DNA of 35,933 nt from Agrococcus sp. (lineage in GTDB: Bacteria > Actinomycetota > Actinomycetes > Actinomycetales > Microbacteriaceae): positions 1 to 35,933 of the forward strand of contig JAPSJX010000015.1 in NCBI GenBank assembly GCA_031178105.1, written 5' to 3'. The first letter of the stretch is position 1. Each line of letters starts with the position of its first letter. Under the pieces are notes generated by a model that worked only from the letters and a program-made list of their open reading frames with translations, made no database searches and was not told the DNA's origin. Made by a program: the position numbers and the translations under genes. Shown in pieces: positions 11,635-16,164 of this stretch.

Positions 11635-13422
11635 ATGAGCGAGCGACGAGGCATGTTCGGCCGGCGGCGGCGCGACGACGACGGGCCGCGAGCATCGGTG
11701 CGCGAGCTCTTGCCGTACCTCTTCCCGAAGAAGGGGCTCCTCGTCGGGGCGATCGTGCTCTCGGTGCTCGGCGCGGGGTTCGCGCTCGCGCAGCCGGCGC
11801 TCGCGCAGGAGCTGATCGCTCGCGTCGAGCAGTCGCGGCCGCTCGAGGGGCTGCCCGTGGTGCTGCTCGTCATCGTGGTCGTCGGCGCGCTGCTCGACGG
11901 CTTCCAGCACTTCCTGCTGCAGGTGCTCGGCGAGCACGTGGTGCTGCGGACGCGACGCACGCTCGTCGAGCGGATGCTGCGGCTGCCGATCGCCGAGTTC
12001 GACGCCCGGCGCATCGGCGACCTCGTGAGCCGGGTGGGCAGCGACACGACGCTGCTGCGGGCCGTGCTCACGCAGGGTCTCGTCGAGTCGGTCGGCGGCC
12101 TGCTCACGCTCGTCGGCGCCGTCATCGCGATGCTCGTCATCGACCCGCTGCTGCTCGGCCTCACCGTGCTCGTGCTGGCCGTCGCGATCGCGGCGATGCT
12201 CGCCGTCATGCCCCTGCTGACGCGCGCGTCCGGCAGGGCGCAGGAGCAGGTGGGGCACCTGACCAGCGCGCTCGAGCGCGCCATCAGCGCCGTGCGCACC
12301 GTGCGCGCCGCCGGCGCGACCGAGCGCGAGGCAGCGGCGATCGTCGAGCGCGCGAGCGGCGCGTTCGACGCCGGCGTGCGGGTCGCCCGCATCTCCGCGC
12401 TCGTCGTGCCGATCTTCGGCGTCGCGATGCAGCTCGCGTTCCTCGTCGTGCTCGGCGTCGGCGGCCTGCGCGTCGCCACGGGCGAGATCGGCATCGCCCA
12501 GCTCGTCGGCTTCCTGCTGTTCCTCTTCCTCATGATCATGCCGCTCGGCCAGCTGGCCGGCGCGATCTCGGCAGTGAGCGTCGCGCTGGGCGCGCTCGGC
12601 CGCATCCAGGAGATCGTCCGCCTGCCGAGCGAGACGGATGCGGACGCCGATGCGCCGCTCGAACCGCGCGCCGGCGCGCCGATGGTCGCGTTCGAGGACG
12701 TCTCGTTCGCGTATCCCTCGACCGACGAGCCGCGCGTCGTGCTCGACCACGTGTCGTTCTCGGTGCCCGCGGGCACGCGCACGGCGCTCGTCGGGCCCTC
12801 GGGCGCCGGGAAGTCGACGACGTTCGCGCTCATCGAGCGCTTCTACGACGTCAGCGAGGGCAGGTTGCGGATCGGCGGCGCGGACGTGCGCGACGTCGAT
12901 CGCGACTCGCTGCGCGCCCGCATCGGCTACGTCGAGCAGGATGCGCCCGTGCTCGCCGGGTCGCTGCGCGACAACCTGCGCCTCGGTGCGCCCGATGCGA
13001 CCGACGCGCAGCTGCTCGACGCGCTCGAGGCGGTCAACCTCGGCGACCTCGTGCGCCGGGCGAGCGCCGGGCTCGACGCCGAGGTCGGCGAGGGCGGCGT
13101 GCTGCTGTCGGGCGGCGAGCGGCAGCGGCTCGCCATCGCCCGGGCGCTGCTCGCGTCGACGCCGATCCTGCTGCTCGACGAGTCGACCGCCAACCTGGAC
13201 GCCCGCAACGAGGCGTCGCTCAAGGCCGCGCTCGACGTCGCGAGCGAGGGTCGCACGACGCTCGTGATCGCGCACCGGCTCGCGACGGTCGTGGACGCCG
13301 ATCAGATCGTCGTGCTCGACGGCGGCCGGGTGCTCGCGCGCGGCACCCACGAGGAGCTGCTCGACGCGTCCCCGCTGTACCGCGAGCTCGCCGCGCACCA
13401 GCTGCTGGCGCCCGCCGCCTGA
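11635..13422 (+). CDS. ABC exporter, fused membrane and ATPase domains
   Basis: A 595-residue half-transporter of the ABC-B type, expected to work as a homodimer. Six helices occupy roughly residues 35-330, beginning LVGAIVLSVLGAGFALAQPALAQ. The nucleotide-binding domain follows with Walker A GPSGAGKST, Q-loop region YVEQDAPV, signature LSGGERQRLAIARALL, Walker B ILLLDEST and H-loop IAHRL. The start at 11635 follows the 17-bp repeat array, with no good ribosome-binding site; a second ATG at 11653 is possible. The N-terminus carries a run of arginines and aspartates. Drug, lipid or peptide export are all possible; the sequence does not say which. Confidence 0.92.
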   Translation: MSERRGMFGRRRRDDDGPRASVRELLPYLFPKKGLLVGAIVLSVLGAGFALAQPALAQELIARVEQSRPLEGLPVVLLVIVVVGALLDGFQHFLLQVLGEHVVLRTRRTLVERMLRLPIAEFDARRIGDLVSRVGSDTTLLRAVLTQGLVESVGGLLTLVGAVIAMLVIDPLLLGLTVLVLAVAIAAMLAVMPLLTRASGRAQEQVGHLTSALERAISAVRTVRAAGATEREAAAIVERASGAFDAGVRVARISALVVPIFGVAMQLAFLVVLGVGGLRVATGEIGIAQLVGFLLFLFLMIMPLGQLAGAISAVSVALGALGRIQEIVRLPSETDADADAPLEPRAGAPMVAFEDVSFAYPSTDEPRVVLDHVSFSVPAGTRTALVGPSGAGKSTTFALIERFYDVSEGRLRIGGADVRDVDRDSLRARIGYVEQDAPVLAGSLRDNLRLGAPDATDAQLLDALEAVNLGDLVRRASAGLDAEVGEGGVLLSGGERQRLAIARALLASTPILLLDESTANLDARNEASLKAALDVASEGRTTLVIAHRLATVVDADQIVVLDGGRVLARGTHEELLDASPLYRELAAHQLLAPAA

Positions 13423-13479
13423 GGGGTACCCACTGGTGATGCGTGCCCAACGCCGTAGCGGCCGGCGGCAGGCGATCGC

Positions 13480-14325
13480 TCAGACGAGGACGGTCACCGC
13501 ACTGAGCGCCGCAAGCAGCAGGCTCGCGAGTGTTCCCACGAGGAATTCCTCCGCTTTAGCCCCGCGGTCCTGGTCCGCGGAGATCTCCGGGAAGCGCACG
13601 ACACCCTTCACTGCGACGAGGCTCGCGATGAGGATCGGCATGGACGCCAGGAAGGCCGCGAACACCAGGAGGCGCTCAAGGGGTCCTACGAAGCGGCCGC
13701 CGAGGAATCCGGAAGCGGCGATCGAGTCCTTCGGCTTGCGGATCTCGGCGACCTCGGTATTCCGGATGCTCAGTTTCCAGGACGGCTCATGAGGCGTCTC
13801 GACAGGGACGCCCGATGTCTCTTCGTCGGTGTGAGCGGCGTTGACGATGACCGTCACCAGGGCGTTGCAAGCAGGGCCGAGGAACAGCAAGGCGCTGATC
13901 GCTGCCGCGAGGGCTCCATATTCCACGCCGAGCGTCGCTGCCGCTCGAGCGAGCGCCTGCCCGACCACGCCCACCGGAGAAGGGTGCGCGTCTTGAAGAA
14001 GAACAGCCGCAACGATGCTGACCACCGCGATCGCTACGCCGATCAGTCTCGTGCGACGCGTGCGGCGAAACAGCAGGAGCGTGCTGATGACGGCAGTCGA
14101 CGTCGCGATCGAGGTGTCGAGGCCACTCACTCCAACACCCCAGTGCAGAAGACTGGCCGACGCGAGCAGGCACACCGAGGCGAAGATCCAGCCGCCCACG
14201 CCGGAAGGCCGCGGTAGGTCAGGAGCGTGTGGCTCCTCGAGCGAGCGGCCGCCACGGCGCGGGCTGACCAGAGCGAATGCCGTCCACACGGTGCCCAGCA
14301 TGAGCATGATGGCGGAGGCGATCAT
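13480..14325 (-). CDS. Polytopic membrane protein paired with SatD-like gene
   Basis: A 281-residue membrane protein with about seven hydrophobic segments: residues 1-18, around 45-67, two short ones between 70 and 110, one long pair near 125-165, and two at the C-terminus. A charged loop of about 45 residues (AHTDEETSG to DSIAAS) precedes the last part. That part, GRFVGPLERLLVF, then VAVKGVVRF, then AEEFLVGTLAS, matches a pattern I know from membrane proteins linked to SatD (GxxIGxLER, AKSxxRF, AEYxxIGTLxS). Its start overlaps the satD-like stop by four bases. GC content is lower than in neighbouring genes. Function is unknown; a membrane partner or effector of the SatD-like protein is the simplest reading. 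Confidence 0.75.
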   Translation of the reverse strand: MIASAIMLMLGTVWTAFALVSPRRGGRSLEEPHAPDLPRPSGVGGWIFASVCLLASASLLHWGVGVSGLDTSIATSTAVISTLLLFRRTRRTRLIGVAIAVVSIVAAVLLQDAHPSPVGVVGQALARAAATLGVEYGALAAAISALLFLGPACNALVTVIVNAAHTDEETSGVPVETPHEPSWKLSIRNTEVAEIRKPKDSIAASGFLGGRFVGPLERLLVFAAFLASMPILIASLVAVKGVVRFPEISADQDRGAKAEEFLVGTLASLLLAALSAVTVLV

Positions 14326-14957
14326 GATGTCGCTTCCTTCAGGGTCTGGACCATCTCCACCAACGCGGCGGCGCCGGAGCGATTCCAGCTCTGAGAGACC
14401 GCGGGTTGCGATATTCCTTCTTCCTGTGCTGTGCGACTCTGCGGTATGTTTCGCAGCCCGGCCAACGCGATGGTCCTGTCACGTTCTCGCATGCGCCCGA
14501 AGATGTGGTCGCGAAGCAGCAGGAGTGATTGGATCGTAGGATCCACTCCTCCCGAAGGACCCACGATCCCAGTTCGGCTGTAGCTCCGACCTGCTTTCTC
14601 CGCGCGCCGGATGCGGTCAATGGCGTCGCGGGCATGCCACCAAGCCGACCCATCCCTGATTCTTGATGGTCCGTCGGACTCGATGACGTCGTCGATGCCG
14701 ACGCCAAGACCGAAGCGGAGCTCGATGCCTTGAGGCAGGAGCAGCGGCACCACCGTGGTGGCGATGACCGCCTGCGAGATGGTGTCGTACACGGTCTGGA
14801 ACTCGTCGCCTACGGTGGCATACGCTGGCACCGCGGGTCGAGCATGCTCGGTGGCGCCCTGGAAAGCCGTCAGGATCTGGGCTTGCGCCTGGCTTCGGTC
14901 GTCAAGACGTCGGGATCCGACGATGTCCGCGATCAGGGCCACGACGTCGCTCTGCAT
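14322..14957 (-). CDS. SatD-like protein: cyclase-like core plus C-terminal HTH
   Basis: A 211-residue protein resembling the SatD family (first named from the acid-tolerance satCDE genes of Streptococcus mutans). The N-terminus reads VVALIADIVGSRRLDDR, then YATVGDEFQTVYD with D51, then ELRFGLGVGIDDV. These three blocks run in the order and spacing of the metal-binding core of class III nucleotidyl cyclases, with D11 and D51 as the candidate metal ligands. The later cyclase Asn/Arg motif is not recognisable (WHARDAIDRIRR in its place). The C-terminal 50 residues, SRTAQEEGISQPAVSQSWNRSG, form a helix-turn-helix. Start: ATG at 14957 with TACACT seven bases upstream, so probably leaderless. Hand count over 14341-14580 gives 62% GC, well below neighbours. 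The cyclase reading is inference. Confidence 0.75.
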   Translation of the reverse strand: MQSDVVALIADIVGSRRLDDRSQAQAQILTAFQGATEHARPAVPAYATVGDEFQTVYDTISQAVIATTVVPLLLPQGIELRFGLGVGIDDVIESDGPSRIRDGSAWWHARDAIDRIRRAEKAGRSYSRTGIVGPSGGVDPTIQSLLLLRDHIFGRMRERDRTIALAGLRNIPQSRTAQEEGISQPAVSQSWNRSGAAALVEMVQTLKEATS

Positions 14958-14960
14958 GAT

Positions 14961-15007
14961 GATAAGTGTACAGCTAATACTGGCGATATATAAGTGTCCG
15001 TCTTATA
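14961..15007 (-). promoter_or_regulatory. Paired operators over the satD-like promoter
   Basis: Two related 19-bp sites, at 14961-14979 and 14989-15007, share ATAAGTGT, a C, CT and a final ATA (14 of 19 positions) and have centres 28 bp apart. The upstream one is a clean palindrome, TATAAG-N7-CTTATA. On the minus strand TACACT (14965-14970) is a -10 box seven bases before the satD ATG and lies inside the nearer site; the farther site covers the -35 region. Binding by the HTH of the SatD-like protein would give autoregulation. The stretch is strikingly AT-rich for this genome. Confidence 0.6.
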
Positions 15008-15138
15008 GTCGCCGTCTATGCGCTGCAGGCTTATCAGCCTTCCAGAAGAGGTCGACGGACGGGCCGTCGGCGACCGTGCCTTCGGCTCGGCGCGCACGCG
15101 CGCGCTGCAGAGCTCGCGGCGGAGAACGGAGGACGCAG

Positions 15139-16164
15139 ATGACGGTCGAAGCCTGGCTGGGCACACCGCTGCCCGTGGTGGCGGCACCGATGGCGGGCGG
15201 GCCGAGCTCCGTCGCCCTCACGACGGCGACCGCGCGAGCGGGCGGCTTCCCCTTCGTCGCCGCCGGCTACAAGGCGCCCGAGGTGATGGCGCACGAGATC
15301 GACCAGGTGCGCGCGCTCGGCGTGCCCTTCGGCGTCAACCTCTTCGTGCCCGGCGCCGCTGCGCTCGACCTGCCGTCGTTCCGCGTCTACGCCGCGTCGC
15401 TGCAACCCGAGGCCGCGGTCTACGACGTGCAGCTCGATCCCGAACCGGTCATCGATGACGACCACTGGACCGCCAAGCTCGCACACCTCGTCGCGCATCC
15501 CGTCCCCGTGGTCTCCCTGACGTTCGGGCTGCCGTCGCCTCGAGACATCGAGGCGCTGCAGCGTCGTGGGACGCGCGTGCTCGCGAGCGTCACGACGCCG
15601 GAGGAGGCAGTGGCGGCGCGCGCCGCAGGGGTCGACGGGCTGGTCGCGCAGGGCACCGACGCAGGCGGGCACTCCGCGACCCACGATCCGGCTCGCACGC
15701 TCGTGCCGGTGACGACGCTCGGACTGCTCCGGGCCGTGCGCGCGGTCGTGGACATGCCGGTGATCGCGGCAGGCGGCGTGGACGGGCCGGATGCCGCAGG
15801 CGCCCTCCTCGACGCCGGAGCAGCAGCCGTCGCGGTCGGCACGCTGCTGCTCCGCACCGACGAGGCGGGGACCTCACCGACGCATCGGGCGGCGCTGGCC
15901 GACCCGCGCTTCGACGAGACGGTCATCACGCGCGCCTTCACGGGCCGCCCCGCGCGAGCGCTCCTGAACGGGTTCATCGAGCGCCACGACGGCGCCGCCC
16001 CGGTTGCCTACCCGGCGGTGCACCACCTGACGCGCGCGCTCAGACAGGCAGCGAGCGGCGCCGGCGACGCCGACCGACTCCACCTGTGGGCGGGCACGGG
16101 CTTCCGCAACGCCCCGACCGGGCCGGCCGCAGACGTCGTCCGGTGGCTGGCGGGAGTCGGCTGA
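15139..16164 (+). CDS. Nitronate monooxygenase (NMO/2-nitropropane dioxygenase family)
   Basis: FMN-dependent TIM-barrel enzyme, 341 residues, that oxidises alkyl nitronates to a carbonyl compound plus nitrite. The FMN-binding start VVAAPMAGGPSS, the active-site segment QGTDAGGHSATHD with H178 (the catalytic-base position of class I enzymes), and the phosphate loop VIAAGGVDGPDAAGALLDAGAAAVAVGT are all visible. The ATG at 15139 is supported by GGAGG eight bases upstream. It converges on the nitrilase gene across a strong hairpin. Nitronate metabolism next to a nitrilase suggests attention to nitrogen-bearing natural compounds, but some family members act on other substrates. Confidence 0.88.
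   Translation: MTVEAWLGTPLPVVAAPMAGGPSSVALTTATARAGGFPFVAAGYKAPEVMAHEIDQVRALGVPFGVNLFVPGAAALDLPSFRVYAASLQPEAAVYDVQLDPEPVIDDDHWTAKLAHLVAHPVPVVSLTFGLPSPRDIEALQRRGTRVLASVTTPEEAVAARAAGVDGLVAQGTDAGGHSATHDPARTLVPVTTLGLLRAVRAVVDMPVIAAGGVDGPDAAGALLDAGAAAVAVGTLLLRTDEAGTSPTHRAALADPRFDETVITRAFTGRPARALLNGFIERHDGAAPVAYPAVHHLTRALRQAASGAGDADRLHLWAGTGFRNAPTGPAADVVRWLAGVG

Follow-up and report, generated by a model that had tools for sequence, protein, structure and literature searches.

How is a locus to be read in which a protein resembling a nucleotidyl cyclase carries a DNA-binding domain and its gene runs into that of a membrane protein? The two genes lie on the reverse strand of a 35,933-nucleotide stretch of an Agrococcus sp. 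contig (the whole of which is called the window here). satD (14322..14957) encodes 211 amino acids, and the gene for its membrane partner (13480..14325), recognised as an open reading frame with conserved adjacency, encodes 281. The earlier note had read the motifs ALIADIVGSR, ATVGDEFQTVYD and LRFGLGVGI, in that order, in the satD product, had placed a four-base overlap between the two genes and had counted 62% GC over 14341-14580. The motifs are present in the frame 14322-14957 (reverse strand), the overlap (ATGA) lies as described and the GC content of that segment is 61.7%. Over the full genes, GC amounts to 63.4% for satD and 66.4% for the partner, with 71.9% for the whole window, and the 600 bp with the lowest GC in the window begin at 14451. 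At third codon positions the values are 0.73 and 0.79, respectively, against 0.92-0.97 in three neighbouring genes. An Rfam search of 13300-15300 gave no match. Since both genes and their adjacency are kept in relatives, the pair is more than a chance arrangement.

The satD product matches the SatD family (PF16264) with 47.6 bits, the curated cut-off being 29, and divides into a cyclase-fold domain (about residues 1-135; codons 14559..14957, reverse strand) and a C-terminal helix-turn-helix (HTH) region (about residues 140-211; codons 14325..14540, reverse strand). An AlphaFold2 model, computed with an alignment of 29 relatives as input, reached a pLDDT of 95.2 and a pTM of 0.91. In Foldseek, class III cyclase domains matched this model best (3et6 at E 1.7e-4, then 1ybu), with TM scores of 0.44/0.50 for the top match; the cUMP synthase 7r65 ranked seventh, and a GGDEF domain and PucR-type regulators (3onq, 9f80) came after. 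Likewise, alignment with 16 actinobacterial class III cyclases by hhalign gave a probability of 83.7 (E 8e-6) and placed D11 and D51 on the cyclase metal aspartates. The cyclase-like fold claimed from the motifs is thus borne out, as is the C-terminal HTH, for which the model shows helices at 158-168, 173-180 and 184-193 and SatD relatives give weak HTH matches. A PDB sequence search with the window protein returned no match, a search with the SatD profile returned HTH proteins only, weakly, as its top matches, and no Guanylate_cyc match was obtained in Pfam for either protein. Scanning the genome contigs with the single window sequence gave no relative; the alignment-based scan did.

Class III cyclases use two metal-binding aspartates, a transition-state asparagine and arginine, and a lysine/aspartate pair that specifies the base. 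In SatD, D11, S15, D51 and Q54 are invariant in all 39 aligned sequences, one archaeal and the proteobacterial ones included, with E52 kept in 36 and R81 in 37. The positions aligned with the transition-state Asn/Arg and the base-specifying Lys/Asp are variable or non-polar. A canonical class III cyclase, with canonical cyclisation, is not supported, because these catalytic and base-recognition residues are not conserved; judged from its residues, the site looks fit for binding a metal-nucleotide complex. Residue roles were taken from the available text of PMC4886424, together with general knowledge. The DUF2652 cyclase-like proteins with which that text is concerned were considered as members of the same family as SatD and set aside, as they belong to a different DUF. 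The earlier note had named a missing cyclase fold, a loss of D11/D51 or a lack of linkage between the genes as grounds for abandoning its proposal; the fold was found, both aspartates are kept and the genes are linked.

Linkage was counted in three samples. Within the Microbacteriaceae, SatD occurs in 43 of 199 genomes at 44 places, and in all 29 loci fetched, of the 43 places found outside the window's own, the partner adjoins it. The partner lies directly downstream with an overlap of 1-7 bases in 26 of these, is convergent in one (L025) and divergent in two (L030, L031). A second set comprised 80 named loci, chosen as the best among at least 471 relatives; the partner is next to SatD in 78 of them, on the same strand in 76 and downstream on the opposite strand in L110 and L111. 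The two remaining loci have PycTM in its place (L037, Demequina phytophila) or neither (L080, Microbacterium). As adjacency is kept in L025, L030, L031, L110 and L111, the pairing holds despite changed orientation. The family and named sets (L002-L031 and L032-L111) contain partly the same organisms, so that their counts overlap; L009, a near copy of L007, was dropped from A1, A2 and A3, and L025, where the partner start is unclear, from A2. Across the phylum, the C-terminal module of the partner was found in 30 of 396 genomes, each time beside a SatD-like ORF (down to 25.9 bits), and eight SatD-like loci lack a partner (L143, L155, L157, L159, L160, L168, L169 and L171). This count leaves out L156, a fragmentary gene at the end of a contig, and includes L159, which ends near a contig end, and L155, whose SatD-like gene has no SatD match in Pfam. 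A partner never found without a SatD-like neighbour, while eight SatD-like loci are partnerless, is the asymmetry expected of toxin and antitoxin. As a separate observation, ORFs neighbouring the partnerless SatD-like genes of L155 and L157 look aconitase-like by eye, L159 being partnerless as well.

The pair extends to plasmids, where a SatD-like gene lies just 5' of a partner gene in all 10 records opened (17 were found). The hosts are Haloplanus, Halorientalis, Segatella, Fusobacterium, Vibrio, Agrobacterium, Sphingomonas, Enterobacter, Arthrobacter and Salinivibrio, two of them archaeal, and the partner module usually sits within a DUF3307 protein. Tested against Pfam SatD, eight plasmid SatD-like proteins gave three matches at the cut-off, two weak ones and three none, so that the wider family rests on common position, size and motifs. 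No match to the Enterobacter pair was found in E. coli genomes, and neither SatD nor the partner was found in a phage collection.

The partner itself has no match in Pfam, NCBIfam, PADLOC or PHROGs. It had been described as a seven-helix membrane protein lacking a cyclic-nucleotide-binding domain; Pfam indeed finds no such domain in it, nor any other. The figure of seven helices is plausible; a crude hydropathy scan gives eight partly overlapping segments and a structure model, itself weak, 10 helices of mixed length. This model has no PDB match at E 0.001 or better, and a PDB sequence search with the module gave none. The N-terminal part of the partner is variable among relatives, while the last ~80 residues (13480..13713, reverse strand; GGR..G..ER ... 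K...R..E ... E....G...S) carry invariant G, G, G, E, R, K, R, E, E, G and S. In L137-L139 a DUF3307 domain (PF11750) precedes this tail, and SatD-paired proteins of L137, L138, L139, L175 and L179 match DUF3307 in Pfam; this family is not matched by the window partner and is absent from the 13 families matched by 28 partners. In L030, L031 and L177 the partner is little more than the module, with 90 residues in Agrobacterium (L177). The C-terminal module is the likely point of contact with SatD. On the Agrobacterium plasmid pAt, SatD and this 90-residue partner lie near annotated HEPN/nucleotidyltransferase, HipA and DUF4365 genes.

Directly before satD lies a candidate operator (14958..14996, reverse strand), an imperfect inverted repeat CTTATAT-N7-ATATAAG followed by a third half-site next to the start codon. 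The window's own copy scores below 7. An inverted repeat scoring 7 or more occurs in 46 of 103 unique upstream regions (from 110 in total), compared with 3.6% of shuffled sequences and 30 of 309 control sites upstream of random ATGs, and CTTATA or its complement occurs in 59 of the 103. Furthermore, the half-site shifts with the recognition helix: QQAVS goes with CTTGTA in 10/10 loci (L027 and L107 also carry CTTGTA), TPSAVSQ mostly with CTTACTT, and SASAVS or SDSAVS with CTTCAT. The helix groups with differing half-sites are also phylogenetic groups, and part of the shift may be explained by shared descent, as all 10 QQAVS loci are Actinomyces. On plasmids, a repeat scoring 7 or more lies within 90 bp upstream in 6 of 10 loci, a figure that stands without a control. 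The shift of half-site with helix indicates that SatD very probably controls its own operon through the predicted operator. A single sigma-70-like site came out of a promoter scan, TCGCCA-16-TATCAT (14986-14959), where shuffled sequences gave 0.2; from comparison with relatives, we prefer TACACT at 14965-14970 as the candidate promoter element. The predicted operator overlaps the likely promoter, which is probably leaderless, and its position over promoter and start suggests repression rather than activation. A genome-wide search found perfect palindromes in 4 of 199 genomes, with just two lying at satD; the reversed control pattern turned up in 4 genomes as well, so that this search says nothing on a regulon. 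Perfect CTTATAT/ATATAAG palindromes were also seen at L264 (~2429-2449) and L263 (~2464-2484), in two genomes that give no SatD match, one of them, by eye, at the start of a PadR-like gene.

The low local GC had been taken as a sign of transfer, and comparison with congeners agrees. In three of them (G174, G601 and G119), the genes that flank the pair in the window, for an ABC transporter and an oxygenase-like protein, lie 22-35 bp apart and form an empty site, while in the window ~1.7 kb separates them and holds just the pair and its operator. The inserted segment (about 13426..15123, given without strand) contains no transposase. G601 has a SatD on another contig. SatD is clear in only one of 15 congeners, a second match, in G594 (20.6 bits), being probably spurious. 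In 24 relatives satD is not lower in GC than its flanks (mean difference +0.7%), unlike the window satD. With a low GC content and a clean insertion relative to three empty sites, the pair is a mobile unit.

Taken together, the findings lead us to favour, with moderate confidence, a mobile unit of a nucleotide-sensing repressor, which controls its own operon, and a membrane effector, acting in the manner of a toxin-antitoxin module. SatD, with both metal-ligand aspartates kept, would most likely bind a metal-nucleotide, and its HTH would bind the inverted repeat over its own promoter and hold the operon down. The second, overlapping gene would supply the membrane effector, whose common part is the C-terminal module. 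A change in nucleotide, perhaps on stress or phage attack, may then release repression or the partner, with growth altered or stopped. In this scheme the nucleotide ligand, the toxicity of the partner and a protective role in stress or defence are what we infer; the pair probably represents a switch for stress or defence that controls itself and has been overlooked.

A parallel to Pycsar had been drawn from the motifs, and it holds for the neighbourhood of SatD, which adjoins PycTM in four lineages, and not for the pair itself, which has no PADLOC, PycTM or Guanylate_cyc match. In G412 (L143/L182; 1486-3441 of L143) two SatD-like genes enclose a PycTM gene (PF18967, E 6.8e-17) on the opposite strand, and no class III cyclase match lies within 1.5 kb. 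In G263 a cyclase-PycTM pair converges on the SatD-partner pair, and Sphingomonas insulae has PycTM and a cyclase gene next to SatD-DUF3307. Demequina phytophila (L037, 4842-7750) has SatD, PycTM and then a gene with a cyclase-like GD motif by eye and no Pfam match; an operator of the usual type is absent upstream of this SatD. Over 396 genomes SatD is adjacent at 2 of 21 PycTM places, for which a rough chance estimate is well below 0.01. SatD might accordingly be a divergent but active nucleotidyl cyclase, whose cyclic or other nucleotide gates the membrane partner as in Pycsar, the HTH only setting the level. The invariant metal aspartates, the cyclase domains at the head of the fold matches with 7r65 among them, the replacement of the usual partner by PycTM in D. 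phytophila and the G412 arrangement all speak for such an enzyme. We nevertheless consider it rather doubtful, as the Asn/Arg and Lys positions are not conserved, the partner lacks a cyclic-nucleotide-binding domain, and in L272 and L178 PycTM already has a Guanylate_cyc cyclase. None of 31 Microbacteriaceae genomes gave a match to Guanylate_cyc (PF00211), compared with 30 of 60 genomes sampled across the phylum that have one.

Location in defence islands, also raised earlier, did not emerge clearly. For 18 of 20 Microbacteriaceae loci (in the other two, satD was missed by the gene caller), 138 neighbours were compared with 135 of 153 called control genes. At E 1e-10, 71 PADLOC families were matched among the neighbours and 47 among the controls; mad3 was found in 8 neighbours against 2 controls, mad8 in 6 and AriA in 5 against at most 1. 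These matches form no recognisable system, and we speak of no clear defence signal rather than of none. The genes around these pairs look ordinary, as they would if SatD and its partner were a housekeeping pair, neither toxic nor defensive, in which a PucR-like ligand-sensing repressor serves with a membrane protein in envelope or acid stress. PucR-type regulators are indeed among the fold matches, and the S. mutans satCDE genes, which lie with ffh, are tied to acid tolerance (PMC12077213), which fits a milder role than that of a toxin-antitoxin-like switch. The patchy presence in the family and among congeners, the clean insertion with its low GC, the occurrence on plasmids and the retention of both metal aspartates make this account unlikely. 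A non-enzymatic SatD governing a broad regulon, with the partner one target among many, is highly improbable, for although G043 and G187, which give no SatD match, likewise carry perfect palindromes, the partner is a near-constant neighbour and the operator sits at satD's own start codon.

The autoregulated, toxin-antitoxin-like pair may be one instance of something wider. Tentatively, we envisage a hitherto unrecognised two-gene system, bacterial and archaeal, in which a repressor with the nucleotidyl-cyclase fold perceives or itself produces a nucleotide signal and in that way sets free a membrane effector whose defining part is the new module. The effector slot would be exchangeable, even for the PycTM pore protein, and the system would spread as a bare cassette and serve as a toxin-antitoxin or abortive-infection device. 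SatD and DUF3307 (PF11750) are named yet unexplained families that appear here as one unit of cyclase-fold sensor, own operator and membrane effector, and the same pairing recurs in very different bacteria and archaea. If correct, this reading would bring a protein with the cyclase fold into the group of self-regulating toxin-antitoxin or defence switches and assign a role to a conserved membrane module that Pfam does not model. It would also explain why satD is essential yet accessory in Streptococcus pyogenes, where 178 of 249 genomes carry it and where, according to PMC11323703, it alone among accessory genes scores in the top quarter for essentiality; this argument draws on a distant SatD, considered without its partner. 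In our literature searches the SatD family is uncharacterised, with no description of a cyclase fold, of an operator of its own or of a constant membrane partner; passages of PMC10326533 and PMC5786311 give no mechanism, and those of PMC11224242 cover Pycsar.

Among known families, the closest is SatD (PF16264), which takes its name from the sat operon of Streptococcus mutans, with the same N-terminal domain and HTH as the window protein. DUF3307 membrane proteins resemble the partner in that the SatD-adjoining gene of L137-L139, L175 and L179 ends in the same C-terminal module; the window partner differs in having no DUF3307 match and an N-terminal membrane part of another type. Pycsar systems (a PycC cyclase with PycTM or PycTIR) likewise join a cyclase-fold protein to a membrane protein, and SatD stands beside PycTM in four lineages. 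Unlike PycC, SatD lacks conserved canonical catalytic residues and has an HTH, and by Pfam and PADLOC neither gene of the pair encodes a PycC-type cyclase or an effector of the PycTM or TIR type. PucR/CdaR-type regulators (3onq, Rv2242), which we take to combine a cyclase-like fold with a DNA-binding part, differ from SatD, which keeps both metal aspartates and a fixed membrane partner. Toxin-antitoxin modules are overlapping gene pairs whose first gene encodes a DNA-binding, autoregulated protein. A conserved two-gene operon and an autoregulating DNA-binding protein, both typical of such modules, are seen here in the linkage and in the candidate operator, to which SatD presumably binds. The window pair departs from them in the nucleotidyl-cyclase fold of its first protein, and resembles them in its gene overlap, in the DNA-binding domain and predicted autoregulation of the first gene, and in a second gene that never stands alone in our sample.
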